From the NCBI GenBank assembly GCA_021790475.1, contig JAJYDU010000005.1, positions 1-41,393 of the forward strand: a stretch of DNA of 41,393 nucleotides, read 5' to 3'. Position 1 is the first letter of the stretch. Every line of letters begins with the position of its first letter. This DNA is from Planctomycetota bacterium (GTDB taxonomy: Bacteria > Planctomycetota > Phycisphaerae > WQYP01). The position numbers were made by a program, and so were the translations under genes. The notes under the pieces are model-generated. The model searched no databases. It saw only the letters and a list, made by a program, of their open reading frames with translations, and had not been told where the DNA came from. Positions 22,117 through 28,858 of this stretch are shown here, piece by piece.

Positions 22117-22473
22117 GTGAATCAGCCGCTCCCTGTACCGCACGGGACGATTTCGCCCCGGACTCTTCTATACCAACCGGGAACGCATGTTCGAGTGACC
22201 CAGCAGATCGCGCAGCGGGCGCACGTATACGCGATTACGCTCACGGGCCGGATTCTCCGGCAGGAGCGGCAGGAAAGCGGAAGCTGGTTTGCCCGCAATA
22301 AGGCTGACCGGTTATGGCTGGACCGGTTGATCGTTGAAAAAGACGATGGAGAGAAAATCGTGCTGAATCTGGACGAATTTACGCACGTGGATGTTCTCAA
22401 CGGCCCGCCGCCGATGGAAGGCGTTCCCCCCCTGGTCACGGCCGATCAGGATCGCGCCGGATCGTTGACGTAA
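22117..22473 (+). CDS. small conserved protein of unknown function (planctomycete-type)
   Basis: A 118-residue soluble protein starting at GTG 22117, with GGAGG 5 nt upstream, which makes the start convincing. The core reads YQPGTHVRVTQQIAQRAHVYAITLTGRILR, then ESGSWFARNKADRLWLDRLIVEKDDGEKIVLNLDEFTHVDVL. The pattern of short strands suggests a small beta-barrel similar to RNA- or ligand-binding folds, but no catalytic motif is visible. It resembles a conserved hypothetical that I associate with planctomycetes; I cannot confirm this by search. It precedes the efflux locus and may be transcribed separately. Confidence 0.75.
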   Translation: MNQPLPVPHGTISPRTLLYQPGTHVRVTQQIAQRAHVYAITLTGRILRQERQESGSWFARNKADRLWLDRLIVEKDDGEKIVLNLDEFTHVDVLNGPPPMEGVPPLVTADQDRAGSLT

Positions 22474-22489
22474 ACGGGAAGAACCAATC

Positions 22490-22518
22490 TTGACAGCGCG
22501 AACCTGGCTGGATTAAAA
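22490..22518 (+). promoter_or_regulatory. candidate sigma-70 promoter of the efflux/oxidase locus
   Basis: A perfect -35 box TTGACA (22490-22495) is followed after exactly 17 nt by TTAAAA (22513-22518, 4 of 6 matches to TATAAT). Transcription would begin near 22525, a few bases before the ATG at 22533. This supports 22533 as the start of the first gene. Confidence 0.45.
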
Positions 22519-22532
22519 TGCGTAGTGTTGTT

Positions 22533-22946
22533 ATGGTGCGCCATCTTATTGCAATCTTTTTCATCGTGATGTCCGGGGCGGTTTTGGCGGGGTATTTGCC
22601 GCCGGCCGCCGCATCATCGGGGCGACACTTACACTCTTTCCATCTCGCCCGCTTTTCTCCGCAGGCCGCCCGGCCGGTGTTCCCCGTGAATTCGAACAGT
22701 CCCTCTCTCATGGATCAGCATGGTTGCTGCCTTTCCTGCGGTCAGCGATCCGGCACGTTCGACACATTCGAGGTGTGTTCGCCACGAAGTCTTCGTGATC
22801 ACAAGCCCCATGGGCTTACGGTGTCGGCCAATCCGGCTTACACTCATCTCGAAGCGACGATTTATCGCTGGTTTCTCAGAATCCCTCTCCATCCTCCCTG
22901 GATGGCATCCTCTCTGCTTGCGTTGCATTGCGCCCTGACGATCTGA
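22533..22946 (+). CDS. putative small secreted His/Cys-containing protein
   Basis: I do not recognise a named family. From ATG 22533 the product has about 137 residues: a clear signal peptide (MVRHLIAIFFIVMSGAVLAGYLPPAAAS), then a mature part containing several His residues (HLHSFH) and a CC-x2-C cluster (HGCCLSCG), and a hydrophobic end (WMASSLLALHCALTI). The ATG at 22518 overlaps the predicted -10 box, so it is less likely. Position directly ahead of the TolC-RND-oxidase genes, together with potential metal-binding residues, suggests a periplasmic metal-binding or sensor protein; this is inference. ORFs on the opposite strand overlap it, so its reality is not certain. Confidence 0.45.
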   Translation: MVRHLIAIFFIVMSGAVLAGYLPPAAASSGRHLHSFHLARFSPQAARPVFPVNSNSPSLMDQHGCCLSCGQRSGTFDTFEVCSPRSLRDHKPHGLTVSANPAYTHLEATIYRWFLRIPLHPPWMASSLLALHCALTI

Positions 22947-23154
22947 TCCTTTCCGCTTCTTCTTGCGTTGTGTTGCGTTGCGCCCTGGCGATTCCGATCG
23001 TTTGCGGCGCGAGCCAGGCGCGTCCGCAGAATACCGCAAAAACCAAACAGATACATTTTATTGCCAGGGTGATTCCGATCCCGACGATGGCCAACCAAAG
23101 GGCGGCGGCGGGGCGACTCAAACACCTAAAGCCATACAGGATAGACCATTGCAA
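22947..23154. other. gap between the small secreted protein gene and the TolC-family gene
   Basis: The stretch contains imperfect direct repeats of TTGCGTTG...TTGCGCCCTG(A/G)CGAT around 22918-22995. The track ORF 22963-24729 runs through it, but the real TolC start is at 23155. Reverse-strand ORFs here have low-complexity repeats and look like shadows. Confidence 0.35.
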
Positions 23155-24729
23155 ATGAATAAGATAGAGACAACGTCTCCGGCCCGGCGACTCGGGTGTG
23201 GCCATATTTTATGGCAGTCTGGCTGGCCGCAGAAAGTAGACGCGGCGTCCCGCCGCGTAAAAAGCGGTTGGAAGCCGCTTCCACCATGGTTTGCCACAAA
23301 ATATGGCCACCCCCAACGACTCCGCTGGGCGGTGGTTTTAACGCTGCTGCTACCGGTGGGGTGCCAGTCCTACCACGGCAAGCCGCTAACGCCGGAAGCG
23401 GTGACGCAGACGCTAAAAACCCCTTCGTGGCGTGAACTTCGCGTCGCGGTGAAAAAAACAAGTTCCGAACAATTTCCGAAAACCATGCTTTCTCCGTCAC
23501 AGGCAATCACACCGGAAAGAGCCGCGGTGTTGGCACTGATTCTGAATCCTTCGCTGCGGGCCATCCGCGCGGCGCACGGTGAAGCCTCCGCCCAACTTCT
23601 TCAGGCGGGCATTTTAACGAACCCCGTACTCACCAGCAGTTTGGGTTATGTAACCGGGGGCTTCCGCACGGGCACGTTTAATCCTTACGGAATTGGCGTT
23701 GCTTGGAGCATCCGGCAACTAATTGACCGCCAGGCGCGGATAAGTTCCGCACGCTACGGGCTTAAGGAGGTTGATCTGGAAGTCGCATGGCGGGAATGGC
23801 AGACTGCGGAAGCCGCCCGGCTCGCGGTCTACGCCATGGCTAAGGCAAAGGAGCAACTCAAGGAGGCGCTGGCGGCCCGGCAGCAGCTTGATAAGACCTA
23901 TAAAATTGCGCAGCACGCCAATAGGCTGGGGCTGATCACCCTGTACAATTTGGGTATAGCGCTTACCGCCAGCCAGCGGGCGAAGGCCCTGGTTCTCACT
24001 TTCCGTCAACACTTTGAGCGTAGTCAATTGGAACTGGCGCGCGCCATGGGACTGGGACCGCAGACGGTATTTACCCTTAGCCCCAAAGTACGGCTGCCGA
24101 CGGCGGTTCATCTGCCGGACGTGGTAAAGCTGGAACACAAGGTGGCAAATCGGCGTCTGGATTTGCTGGCGCTGCACATGGGTTATCAGAGCCAACAGGA
24201 GCAGCTGCGCGCCGCCGTGCTGCGGCAGTTTCCCAGTGTCAGCATCGGTTTTACGCAGAACAGCGACCCCAACAACGTACACTACACGAGCTTCGGCGTG
24301 AGCATCGATTTGCCGATATTTGACCGCAACCAGGGCCAGATCGCCTTGGCTAAGGCGACACGCCGAGCGCTTTACGACGATTACATAGCGCGGGTGTTTG
24401 CCGCACGCTCAGACATCGCCACGGCGGCGATGAACATCCGGTCGCTTCAGCGGCGGATACGCCAGGCGCAATTCGCGGTCGGCAAGTACAGGGAGTTGGT
24501 GAATCGGGATCTACAAGGCTTACGCATCCGGAGCGTCAACATCCAGGCCTACGCCGCCGCCATGGAGCAATTGGAACGGGAGCGGATTGGGCTGGTGCAA
24601 TTGCAATATCGGCTCGCGCGGAATCTCATCGCCCTGGAGCTTTCGTCGGGCGACGCCTTTTTTGCGCAACATGGTAAGCCAAATAAGCCAACAACCACGG
24701 CTTCGAACAACAGTGGAGACGCACAATGA
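23155..24729 (+). CDS. TolC-family outer-membrane efflux lipoprotein, signal peptide interrupted by an in-frame repeat element
   Basis: A 524-residue outer-membrane factor of the TolC/CusC type that would form the exit duct of the following RND pump. The mature part has the two repeated helical-hairpin/beta modules (AVLALILNPSLRAIRAAHGEASAQLLQAGILTNPVL; SIDLPIFDRNQGQIALAKATRRAL). The N-terminus is odd: MNKIETTSPARRL is followed by 43 codons encoded by an inverted-repeat element, and only then by LRWAVVLTLLLPVGC, a lipobox. Removing one CGACTC repeat plus the element (129 bp) gives MNKIETTSPARRLRWAVVLTLLLPVGC, a normal lipoprotein signal peptide. That supports ATG 23155 rather than the track start 22963. 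The stop overlaps the next start (ATGA). Export of the present version may be impaired or altered. Confidence 0.9.
   Translation: MNKIETTSPARRLGCGHILWQSGWPQKVDAASRRVKSGWKPLPPWFATKYGHPQRLRWAVVLTLLLPVGCQSYHGKPLTPEAVTQTLKTPSWRELRVAVKKTSSEQFPKTMLSPSQAITPERAAVLALILNPSLRAIRAAHGEASAQLLQAGILTNPVLTSSLGYVTGGFRTGTFNPYGIGVAWSIRQLIDRQARISSARYGLKEVDLEVAWREWQTAEAARLAVYAMAKAKEQLKEALAARQQLDKTYKIAQHANRLGLITLYNLGIALTASQRAKALVLTFRQHFERSQLELARAMGLGPQTVFTLSPKVRLPTAVHLPDVVKLEHKVANRRLDLLALHMGYQSQQEQLRAAVLRQFPSVSIGFTQNSDPNNVHYTSFGVSIDLPIFDRNQGQIALAKATRRALYDDYIARVFAARSDIATAAMNIRSLQRRIRQAQFAVGKYRELVNRDLQGLRIRSVNIQAYAAAMEQLERERIGLVQLQYRLARNLIALELSSGDAFFAQHGKPNKPTTTASNNSGDAQ
23198..23310. mobile_element. 113-bp inverted-repeat (MITE/REP-like) element inside the TolC-family gene
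   Basis: The ends GTGGCCATATTTTATGGCA (23198-23216) and TGCCACAAAATATGGCCAC (23292-23310) are inverted repeats over 19 bp with one mismatch. Inside are two further hairpins, CGCGGCG-TCC-CGCCGCG (23241-23257) and AAGCGG-N7-CCGCTT (23262-23280). The direct repeat CGACTC flanks it at 23188-23193 and 23317-23322. The interval from the first base of one copy to the base before the other is 129 bp, exactly 43 codons, with no stop in the host frame. No transposase is encoded, so any mobilisation would be in trans. Confidence 0.8.
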
Positions 24730-25808
24730 AACGTTTTATTTCTTTTATGATGATTGTTTTGGTACTGGTGGTGGGAATCGCCATCGGATTTGCGCTGGCG
24801 AAATGGGGGACCCCGTCAAGCGGGGGTAACGCCGGGGGCGTTGCGAGCGGCGTTACGACCGTTCTAACCACCCCTATTCGCCAAGGCAAAATTGCGCAGT
24901 CGATCACAGTTTATGGCGCGGTCGTGGCGAACCCCGTGTTGGAGAAGAGCCTTTCAGTGGCCTTTGAATCGCGCGTGGTAAGAGTATTCGTTGTCAAGGG
25001 TCAGAGAGTCTTGGCCAACCAACCCCTCCTGCGGATTCAGGCCAGCCCGGCGGAACGCCTTAAGCTGGCCGAGGCGAAAAACCATCTGAAAATCGCGACC
25101 ATGCAACTGCGGTTGGCGAAAGCGGAACTCAAGCTCCGGTTGACCACACAGGCCGACCTTATCGCGGCCCGGGACGCCCTGATCACGGCTTCACTGCGGC
25201 TGGCCGCCATGCAGCGCCTGGGGATTGGAACTCTGGTGACGTTGCGGGCGCCGGAGGAAGCGGTGGTGGTGGATACACCCGTGGTTCCGGGCAAGCTCGA
25301 ACCCCTCGGCACGGTGCTGATCAATTTATTGCCGGTAAACAAAATCCGGGTGGAATTATGGGTGCCGCCCACGAACGTGCGGCAACTGCGGCCGGGGCAA
25401 AATGTGGATATTGCGGTCGCCATACAAGGCGCTGAAATCCAGCAGCGGGGAACCGTCAGCATGATTACCGGCCAGGTCAATCCCGTCAGCGGATTGGTGA
25501 GCGTATATGTGACGCCGAATAAACCGGGCGGCCTGGTGATCGGCCAATACGCTTCGGGCAAACTTCACATCGCATCAAGCACCGGACTGATTGTTCCGCA
25601 TTCAGCGGTTCTGCCAATCGGCGGCCAGGAAGACATGTATACCGTCAAGGACTCCCGCGCCGTTCTGCATCATGTGAAAATAGGACTGTCCAACCACCGG
25701 GAAGTTGAAGTTTCCGCGCCGGGCCTTCACGTCGGCGAACCGGTTGTGGTCGTGGGGAACGCGGAATTGGCCGACGGCATGCCTGTAAAGCAAGGGAACC
25801 AACCATGA
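24726..25808 (+). CDS. RND efflux periplasmic adaptor subunit (membrane fusion protein)
   Basis: A 360-residue HlyD/AcrA/CusB-like adaptor linking the RND pump to the outer-membrane channel. One N-terminal anchor (FISFMMIVLVLVVGIAIGFALA) is followed by the first lipoyl half (KSLSVAFESRVVRVFVVKGQRVLANQPLLRI), a short helical hairpin (EAKNHLKIATMQLRLAKAEL), the second lipoyl half (VTLRAPEEAVVVDTPVVPGKLE), a beta-barrel domain and a membrane-proximal domain (VPHSAVLPIGGQEDMYTVKD). No Met/Cys metal-binding N-terminal domain of CusB is visible, so the substrate is not settled. The start overlaps the stop of the TolC gene and the stop overlaps the start of the pump gene, both as ATGA, indicating translational coupling. 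Confidence 0.93.
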   Translation: MKRFISFMMIVLVLVVGIAIGFALAKWGTPSSGGNAGGVASGVTTVLTTPIRQGKIAQSITVYGAVVANPVLEKSLSVAFESRVVRVFVVKGQRVLANQPLLRIQASPAERLKLAEAKNHLKIATMQLRLAKAELKLRLTTQADLIAARDALITASLRLAAMQRLGIGTLVTLRAPEEAVVVDTPVVPGKLEPLGTVLINLLPVNKIRVELWVPPTNVRQLRPGQNVDIAVAIQGAEIQQRGTVSMITGQVNPVSGLVSVYVTPNKPGGLVIGQYASGKLHIASSTGLIVPHSAVLPIGGQEDMYTVKDSRAVLHHVKIGLSNHREVEVSAPGLHVGEPVVVVGNAELADGMPVKQGNQP

Positions 25809-28800
25809 GCTTCAATGAATGGATTCATAAGCATACACGCGCAGTGCTGTTCGTGATGGTGGCGCTGGCGCTGGCCGGCGGGGCAGCGGCTTTTATCCTT
25901 CCGGTGTCGTTATTTCCGAGGTCGAGTTGGCCGCGGGTGGAAGTGACCGTCAACTCCGGTTCCCGGACGGCGAAGATCATCGCCGTACAGGTCACCTATC
26001 CGATTGAAAAAGCCATGCGCGCTGTTTTGGGAGTACAGCGCGTCACCTCGACCACCAGTCGCGGCACCGCCGACATCTATGCGGATTTCGGCTGGGGCAA
26101 AAACATGGTTCAGGCGCTGGCGCTGGTGCAGTCGGCGGTGAACACCGTGCTGCCGTCGCTGCCGGCGGGAACCACCACCGTGATCCGGTTGCGCAATCCA
26201 AGTAATTACCAGATAATCAGCTACAGCCTCACTTCCAATACGGTTTCGCCGTCGCGATTGCGGCGAATCGCGCTGTTTCAGATCCGCCCGCTGCTGCTGG
26301 GGATCAGCGGCGTGGCCAAGGTCGGCGTGGAGGGTGGACGCACCCGCGAATACCACGTTATCATTAATCCCGCAAAGCTCGCGGCGTTTAAACTGGACAT
26401 CAATGATGTGACCCGCGCCGTCGCGGCCAACAACATCTTCAAAACCTCCGGAAAAATGGAGGATCACGATAAACTCTACTTCGTGGTAACCGATTCACGG
26501 TTTCACAACGTGCGGCAAATCGGCCGAATTGTAGTCAAGACCGGTGGCAACGGCGTTGTGCATTTGCGGGATGTGGCCCGCATAGAGTCGTCCTTCGCTC
26601 CGGTCTGGACACGCGCCACGGCAAACGGTAAACCCGCCGTCCTGATCGACGTTTATCAGCAACCGGACGGCAACACCGTTCAAATCATCAGTCAAACCCG
26701 CGCGGAAATGAAGAAGATCAAGAGCAAATTGCCCGCGGGCGTGGCGGTTAACCTCTGGTACAATCAAGGCCACGTCCTGATGGAATCGGCGGTGAGTGTC
26801 CGTGATGCGGTGATCGTGGGCATGGTGATGGCGGTGGTGGTGCTGCTGGTCTTCCTGCGCAACTGGAAAACCACCTTCATGGCCGCCCTGGTTGTTCCCG
26901 CCGCGCTGGCCACGACGGTGCTGATGCTGTATGTGCTGAATATGAGTTTTAACATCATGACGCTGGGGGGTATGGCCGCGGCCGTCGGTCTGATTATCGA
27001 TGACGCAATTGTGATGATTGAACACATCATCCGCCGGGTCGGTGAAAAGGGCGGGAACTACAGGGAAAAAATCATCCACGCCAGCGCCGAATTTACCAGT
27101 CCGCTGGCTGGTTCTTCGGCTTCCACCATTATCATCTTCGCGCCATTGGCGTTCTGGTCGGGATTGGTGGGCGAATTTTTCAAGGCCCTGTCGTTTACCA
27201 TGGCGGCGGCATTGCTGGCTTCATTCCTCCTATCCTGGCTGGTGGTGCCGGTGTTGGCGGTCCGCATGATAGGCGAGAAGGACGCCGTGCCGCACGAGCC
27301 GGGGTGGTTAACACGCCGTGCGCATGCAGGCTATGAGTGGGTCGCGAGCCGTCTTATTTCCCGGCCGGCCCTGGTGCTCCTGATTGTCGTTCCGGTGCTG
27401 GCGATCGGTTACCTGGCATACCAGAATGTCGGCAGCGGTTTTATGCCCGAGATGGATGAGGGCGGCTTCAGTATGTTTTACATAGCGCCATCCGGTGGTT
27501 CGTTGACGGAAACCGATCGCCTGCTGCGGCAAGTCGGTAAAATTCTGCGGGCGAACCCATACGTGGCAACCTACTCCCGACGCACCGGAATGCAGTTGGG
27601 CGGCAGTCTGACCGAATCCTACGCGGGCGACTATTATGTTCAGCTCAAGCCCTTTCCCCGCCCACCCATACAACAGGTCATGGATAAGATCGCCAAGGAG
27701 ATCCACCACAGCGTACCGAGTCTGTACATTGACCCCGAACAACTCATGCAGGACCAGATCGGCGATCTGACGGCCGTGCCGCAGCCGATCCGGGTGGAAA
27801 TTTTTTCCGACCATCAAAGCGTGTTGGATCGTGCGGCCCACAAGGTGCTTGCTGCCATTGAGAAGGTCAACGGCGTGGCCGACGCGCGCAGCGGCGTGGT
27901 TGTGGCGGGCGATTCGCTGTACGTCAAAGTCAATTCCGTCGCGGCCGGTATTCACGGCATGACCCCGAAACAGATATCCCGCTTCGTCCATGAATATGTT
28001 TATGGGGTCGTTGCCACTACCATTCGGCGCGGGCCGCAAATGATCGGGGTAAGGGTCTGGGCCCCTAGGGACATGCGCCGGACTCTGGCCGAACTGAGAA
28101 ACCTGCGGCTTCGTTCACCGGATGGACGCCAATTTCGCCTCAGCAGTGTCGCGCAAGTTCAAATCCGGACCGGCGAGCAGGAAATCGATCACATCAACCT
28201 CAAACGGATGATCGCGGTAACGGCGCGAATCCATGGTCGGGACATGGGCTCGACGATGGTGGATGTTAAGAAAGTCTTGAATCGGCCGGGCATGTTTCCG
28301 AAGGGTGTGTATTACCGGCTCGGCGGGTTGTATCGCCAGCAGCAGATCGCCTTTCGGGGGTTGGTGGTGGTGATGCTCGGCGGCGTGTTGCTGGTGTTTT
28401 TATTGCTTCTGTTCTTGTATGAAAGCTTTGGAGCCGCGATTGTCATGATGGTCATTCCGCTGCTGGCGCTGGCGTGCGTTTTTGTTGGGTTATGGATTAC
28501 CCATACGCAACTCAATATTTCCTCAATGATGGGGATGACCATGGTGGTTGGCATTGTGACCGAAGTGACCATCTTCTACTACTCGGAATACCACGAACTG
28601 CGCGACCATGAACACGGCGCCAAACGTCTGATCCAGGCGGGCAAGAACCGCATGCGACCGATAGCCATGACCACCATCGCCGCCATCCTTGCTCTTCTGC
28701 CGCTGGCGCTGGTAATAAGCCCCGGCGCGGCGATGCAGCAGCCGTTGGCGATAGCAATCATCAGTGGACTGGTGGTGCAAATGCCGCTGACGTTGTTGCT

Positions 28801-28858
28801 GCTGCCGGTGCTGCTGGGATTCCTTCACGAGGGAGGAGATGTTTTACCGGAAATATAA
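25805..28858 (+). CDS. RND-family efflux permease
   Basis: A 1017-residue inner-membrane proton-driven pump. It shows the RND plan: an N-terminal helix (AVLFVMVALALAGGAAAFILPVSLFP), two large periplasmic loops, and two groups of helices with the internal repeat. The proton-relay segment in helix 4 is GLIIDDAIVMIEHIIRR, with two adjacent Asp as in HAE-type pumps and not the DGAVVxxEN of classical CzcA/CusA pumps. GSGFMPEMDEGGFSMFYIAPSGGSLTETDRLL starts the second half. The paired multicopper oxidase suggests copper or another metal, but the sequence of the pump itself leaves substrate open. Part of a coupled operon with the adaptor and TolC genes. Confidence 0.94.
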   Translation: MSFNEWIHKHTRAVLFVMVALALAGGAAAFILPVSLFPRSSWPRVEVTVNSGSRTAKIIAVQVTYPIEKAMRAVLGVQRVTSTTSRGTADIYADFGWGKNMVQALALVQSAVNTVLPSLPAGTTTVIRLRNPSNYQIISYSLTSNTVSPSRLRRIALFQIRPLLLGISGVAKVGVEGGRTREYHVIINPAKLAAFKLDINDVTRAVAANNIFKTSGKMEDHDKLYFVVTDSRFHNVRQIGRIVVKTGGNGVVHLRDVARIESSFAPVWTRATANGKPAVLIDVYQQPDGNTVQIISQTRAEMKKIKSKLPAGVAVNLWYNQGHVLMESAVSVRDAVIVGMVMAVVVLLVFLRNWKTTFMAALVVPAALATTVLMLYVLNMSFNIMTLGGMAAAVGLIIDDAIVMIEHIIRRVGEKGGNYREKIIHASAEFTSPLAGSSASTIIIFAPLAFWSGLVGEFFKALSFTMAAALLASFLLSWLVVPVLAVRMIGEKDAVPHEPGWLTRRAHAGYEWVASRLISRPALVLLIVVPVLAIGYLAYQNVGSGFMPEMDEGGFSMFYIAPSGGSLTETDRLLRQVGKILRANPYVATYSRRTGMQLGGSLTESYAGDYYVQLKPFPRPPIQQVMDKIAKEIHHSVPSLYIDPEQLMQDQIGDLTAVPQPIRVEIFSDHQSVLDRAAHKVLAAIEKVNGVADARSGVVVAGDSLYVKVNSVAAGIHGMTPKQISRFVHEYVYGVVATTIRRGPQMIGVRVWAPRDMRRTLAELRNLRLRSPDGRQFRLSSVAQVQIRTGEQEIDHINLKRMIAVTARIHGRDMGSTMVDVKKVLNRPGMFPKGVYYRLGGLYRQQQIAFRGLVVVMLGGVLLVFLLLLFLYESFGAAIVMMVIPLLALACVFVGLWITHTQLNISSMMGMTMVVGIVTEVTIFYYSEYHELRDHEHGAKRLIQAGKNRMRPIAMTTIAAILALLPLALVISPGAAMQQPLAIAIISGLVVQMPLTLLLLPVLLGFLHEGGDVLPEI

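Follow-up and report, generated by a model that had tools for sequence, protein, structure and literature searches.

Prokaryotic MITEs derived from insertion sequences (review, PMC10969869) share with the element described here a length of about 120 bp, terminal inverted repeats, a target duplication and many dispersed copies, as well as the lack of a transposase gene and the existence of related full-length elements with similar ends. In-frame fusions caused by intragenic MITEs are not unusual, the Rickettsia palindromic elements (RPEs) being the extreme (PMC10969869). Like the element reported here, RPEs (summarised in PMC10969869) are palindromic, of roughly the same size and located in frame in protein genes; however, the present family has neither a peptide common to its copies nor a habit of in-frame insertion. 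The QMITE2 of Coxiella (PMC5896051) is likewise a MITE, and some of its insertions are in frame and lengthen a protein; going by its description, it is a different element of another species, and the example given in detail is a C-terminal extension (enhC) and not a signal peptide. Since such fusions are known from several MITEs (PMC10969869; QMITE2, PMC5896051), the present case belongs to a known kind, with an export signal as its less common location. In the open-licence literature, we found neither a description of this Planctomycetota MITE family nor a MITE inserted in frame within a signal peptide or a lipoprotein n-region.

The ISKra4 family belongs to the prokaryotic Mutator superfamily, p-MULT 4 (PMC3942029). 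Some of its members insert upstream of sigma-A promoters, a feature that is not universal in the family (PMC3942029). The MITE family described here resembles ISKra4 (PMC3942029) in that the transposase C-terminus adjoining its ends is most similar to NF033572, its full-length relatives have 8-9-bp duplications, and its copies often lie just outside genes. Unlike in ISKra4, the full-length relatives score 110-147 bits, below the equivalog cut-off of 205. No sigma-70-like promoter was found near this insertion.

The inserted element and the empty site

The window, i.e., the whole stretch of 41,393 nt that was analysed (JAJYDU010000005.1, GCA_021790475.1), contains an inverted-repeat element at 23194-23314, within the first recognised efflux gene of an operon. 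The features of the locus are as follows.

23155-24729, + strand: outer membrane efflux protein (OEP; Pfam, PF02321, 2.8e-21), 524 aa, its n-region lengthened by the 43 residues GCGHILWQSGWPQKVDAASRRVKSGWKPLPPWFATKYGHPQRL
24726-25808, + strand: RND periplasmic adaptor of the same operon (PF13437/PF16576; TIGR01730 above cut-off)
25805-28858, + strand: RND permease of the same operon (PF00873, 2.6e-210)
23194-23314, no strand: MITE body, 121 bp (inverted repeats; absent from four orthologues; ends common to ISKra4-like insertion sequences)
23194-23216, + strand: left terminal inverted repeat GGGTGTGGCCATATTTTATGGCA (inverted-repeat analysis; the commonest family end is GGGTGTGGCCATATTTTTTGGCA)
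23292-23314, - strand: right terminal inverted repeat, minus-strand sequence GGGGGTGGCCATATTTTGTGGCA (inverted-repeat analysis)
23186-23193, no strand: left copy of the 8-bp target-site duplication, GGCGACTC (family 8-bp rule)
23315-23322, no strand: right copy of the target-site duplication, AACGACTC, 6/8 identical to the left copy and identical to the empty site of the congener
23240-23258, no strand: internal hairpin ACGCGGCG-TCC-CGCCGCGT, 8 pairs, loop of 3
23269-23283, no strand: internal hairpin TGGAAG-CCG-CTTCCA, 6 pairs, loop of 3

The 121-bp element has no transposase gene. The initial annotation had described 19-bp inverted repeats with one mismatch; the repeats are present, and their length is 23 bp, with 2 mismatches and 91% complementarity. 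In the window, the 19-bp core occurs with up to 3 mismatches in these two arms only (0.02 expected by chance). The two internal hairpins mentioned in that annotation are located at 23240-23258 and 23269-23283. The folded strand of the element has a predicted energy of -64.8 kcal/mol versus -43.4 ± 3.7 for shuffled sequences (z = -5.9). A search of Rfam gave no match above threshold for the element, and the best one (17.9 of 50 bits, E 0.89) was taken as chance. A sigma-70-type promoter, as in E. coli, was found neither in nor near the element; promoters of Planctomycetota may differ from this type.

Copies of CGACTC are located at 23188-23193 and 23317-23322, which gives a period of 129 bp, or 43 codons, and agrees exactly with the coordinates annotated previously. 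The duplication is indeed present; it had been described as 6 bp in length and, according to the rule of the family, is better described as 8 bp with two mismatched bases, both at the 5' end. The right copy is identical to the empty site of the congener, whereas the left one differs; this can be explained either by two changes in the left copy or by changes that occurred independently in the right copy and in the congener. The two end repeats of the window copy have already diverged from each other, and this asymmetry is partly inherited in the family.

Four orthologues from three genomes, namely G001 (same genus, the single congener compared), G018 and G026 (two copies), are exactly 129 bp shorter than the window gene. 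Their proteins are 82-86% identical to its product, and the alignment is close on both sides of the gap. The empty site of G001, GCCAAACGACTCCGCTGG, corresponds to GCCCGGCGACTC-element-CCAACGACTCCGCTGG in the window. The orthologue of G025 and the more distant one of G009 also have no 129-bp insert. Thus, the comparison with relatives suggested in the initial annotation reveals a clean empty site, and the insert is present in one genome only, being conserved in no relative.

When comparing the orthologues, it can be noted that the G001 gene (L093) has ATA in place of the ATG start of the window gene; both genes could also start at a TTG located two codons further upstream. In addition, the efflux gene looks mosaic (22401-24730): G001 is the closest match to the upstream region and the initial part of the gene (up to 93%), and from about 23630 genus g3 (G018, G026a) is the closer one for most 100-bp stretches, apart from some at about 24030-24330. 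Because of this apparent mosaicism, the history of the gene is not simple.

A dispersed family and its probable transposase partner

When up to 3 mismatches to the 19-bp end were allowed, a search of the window's own genome (2.68 Mb, 214 contigs) revealed 42 matches, and the reversed control gave 0. The suggestion of a mobile multi-copy element, made before from the window sequence, is thus borne out. Complete copies in this genome are mostly 126-132 bp in length and have 8-bp duplications, e.g., GTTTGCAA, CTCAATTT, CGGTTTGC and TTCCACAA. Among the complete pairs of ends from this genome and its relatives, the duplications are identical at 8/8 positions in 18 of the 38 and at 7/8 positions in 4 of the 38. 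In a control of about 2,900 mismatched pairings of left and right flanks, 8/8 identity was observed in 7 (about 0.2%) and 7/8 identity in 24. The true rate of duplication is higher than in the 38 pairs, since some of them are alternative pairings at one place. Among 84,980 species genomes, exact matches to the ends were confined to records with Planctomycetota, Phycisphaerae or Phycisphaerales in the title, and 54 stretches were found in Planctomycetota records; the end sequence had no match in viral contigs.

The interior of the window copy differs from the main type of its own genome, in which this subtype is single-copy. The nearest interiors belong to genus g9 (G016, also G009), with about 75% identity across the two thirds on the right. 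Judging from open frames and by eye, the other complete copies of the own genome are intergenic or lie at gene edges, and none of them is clearly intragenic and in frame. The lengths of family copies vary modulo 3, their open frames differ, and no peptide is conserved.

Several related repeats were also observed. One MITE copy of the own genome (L050, C207:7063-7185) lies directly ahead of a gene whose product, by eye, is glutamate 5-kinase (ProB)-like. Elements of 223-336 bp on contigs C27, C17 and C32 of this genome (L022, L027, L045) have the family ends, and their interior contains other repeat sequence. The isolate STB_87 contains several copies of a related longer MITE of about 275 bp with GGTGTGGCCGTATTTTCTGGCA ends and 8-bp duplications (L135, L149, L114, L132). 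A second palindromic repeat family, with cores like AAAGTAGAAGCGGCGTCCCGCCGCTTTTC, was found in genus g9 (L202, L203, L204, L206; G009, G016), and is in part similar to the interior of the element in the window.

The same ends adjoin a transposase C-terminus in G009 (contig C139) and G017 (contig C46). In the own genome, a decayed, truncated transposase C-terminus adjoins them at about C97:1316-1956. The best family for the C-terminus adjoining the ends is ISKra4 (NF033572 transpos_ISKra4, E 1e-15). PF06782 (UPF0236) had no match in the own genome, but its controls gave none either, so that this result carries no weight. Full-length relatives in G033, G004, G024, G018 and G019 are insertion sequences of 1.5-1.8 kb with the ends GGGTGTGGC, GGGCGTGGC or GGGTGTGCC, starting with GGGTGTG or GGGCGTG, and with 8-9-bp duplications, one of them imperfect. 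Those tested are closest to ISKra4; as their scores are below the cut-off, we call them ISKra4-like rather than certified members. None of the genomes searched contained an assembled complete element with exactly the window-type ends, the ends of the complete relatives being similar only.

The predicted signal peptide of the efflux protein

The insertion point is located after codon 13, and the host frame is free of stop codons throughout the insert, as annotated initially. Since the insert is in frame and stop-free, the gene is predicted to encode an OEP/TolC-like lipoprotein with a 57-residue n-region. Without the insert, the predicted n-region would be 14 residues, which agrees with the earlier placement of the element in the n-region of a lipoprotein signal peptide. 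The predicted net charge of this region rises from +3 to +9 with the insert, and the hydrophobic stretch WAVVLTLLLPVGC is unchanged. A tryptic peptide expected from the predicted read-through is, for example, SGWKPLPPWFATK.

Removal of the insert in silico gives MNKIETTSPARRLRWAVVLTLLLPVGC, as had been proposed. This signal peptide had been called canonical; the lipobox is, however, LPVGC and is not fully canonical because of the Pro at -3 (orthologues have LPAGC or LTTGC). As read from the sequence, the hydrophobic core and the lipobox Cys (Cys70 with the insert, Cys27 without it) are present in both forms, with Pro at -3.

A downstream restart of translation was also considered. In the first 75 codons after the ATG at 23155, the only in-frame ATG, GTG or TTG codons are GTG 23332 and GTG 23356, and a restart at GTG 23332 was rejected because no basic n-region would remain.

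At such a composition, the chance of an open host frame is 0.277, which, multiplied by 1/3 for length, gives about 9%. This is unremarkable given that selection on the gene removes frame-breaking insertions. The mature gene is uninterrupted, with neither a frameshift nor a stop in 524 codons. The dN/dS values to orthologues are 0.18-0.28, within the range of insert-free pairs (0.11-0.30); a recent loss of function may nevertheless have occurred, because dN/dS averages in the time before the insertion. The insert leaves the predicted accessibility of the start-codon region (-20 to +14) unchanged, since the hairpin of the element folds on itself. This prediction gives no support to the translational-control hairpin proposed in the initial annotation. 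A second related OEP gene (45% identity) is located on contig C34 of the own genome.

Probable tolerance of the insertion and other explanations

Tolerance is the simplest reading of the insertion. Probably, a MITE mobilised in trans by an ISKra4-like transposase inserted in the OEP/TolC-like lipoprotein gene, where it is tolerated and most likely near neutral. In this scheme, the transposase, a member of the prokaryotic Mutator superfamily by its likeness to ISKra4, would move the non-autonomous MITE, which would enter after codon 13 and duplicate 8 bp of the target. Because the element and the duplication together make 129 stop-free bp, translation from ATG 23155 would read through, and the n-region would gain 43 residues, most of them polar or basic. 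With the hydrophobic core and lipobox intact, Sec would still accept the longer signal peptide and signal peptidase II would cleave it off, so that the mature lipoprotein would remain the same. The hairpin would fold on itself and leave the start codon unoccluded; together with the intact core and lipobox, this points to an insertion that is tolerated and most likely near neutral. Against this scheme stand the two mismatches in the duplication, the single-copy subtype to which the window copy belongs in its genome, and the apparent mosaicism of the gene.

The longer n-region may alter export. If it lowered export, or if the stable hairpin lowered translation, the window gene would be a slightly or fully defective allele in decay. 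The high stability of the hairpin (z = -5.9) at the beginning of the coding sequence and the change of charge are consistent with such damage, for which the second OEP gene might compensate. We consider it unlikely, since the 524 codons are intact, dN/dS is similar to that of insert-free pairs, and the accessibility of the start codon is unchanged; the divergence of the end repeats from each other also argues against it, though some of this asymmetry is inherited in the family. It is considerably less probable that the hairpin or the peptide extension has been domesticated as an N-terminal module regulating the translation or targeting of the efflux operon. The strong predicted structure would suit this role, as would an insertion so near the beginning of the first efflux gene recognised in the operon; however, the insert is restricted to one genome, the folding of the start region is unaffected, and Rfam gave no match above threshold. 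A transposon-born extended signal peptide under selection, in which the 43 MITE-derived residues and the hairpin alter expression or targeting of the efflux subunit, appears just as improbable.

Two further explanations have very little probability. A protein-tolerated palindromic element of the RPE type, from a family adapted to reading frames, would fit the similar size, the inverted repeats and the in-frame position within a protein-coding gene, and a resemblance to such elements had been suggested initially. At the level of the family, this is contradicted by the other copies of the own genome, which lie outside genes or at their edges, by lengths that vary modulo 3, and by the lack of a shared open frame or peptide, and a partner transposase of the ISKra4-like type was identified. 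An artefact of assembly or binning, which might be expected in a metagenome-assembled genome of 214 contigs, is equally hard to credit: the insert is unlike every other copy in the genome, the contig of 41 kb has unique flanks collinear with those of the congener, and a target duplication with a matching empty site is hard to produce by misassembly.

The MITE is a small non-coding transposon of a known general kind, and the locus does not represent a new system but is a cleanly and well documented instance. Its significance would increase only with evidence that the lengthened signal affects export. The apparently undescribed MITE family, with its ISKra4-like (Mutator superfamily) partner, adds to the mobile elements of Planctomycetota genomes, and the locus provides a clean before/after pair with which the capacity of an export signal's n-region for additional sequence can be studied.
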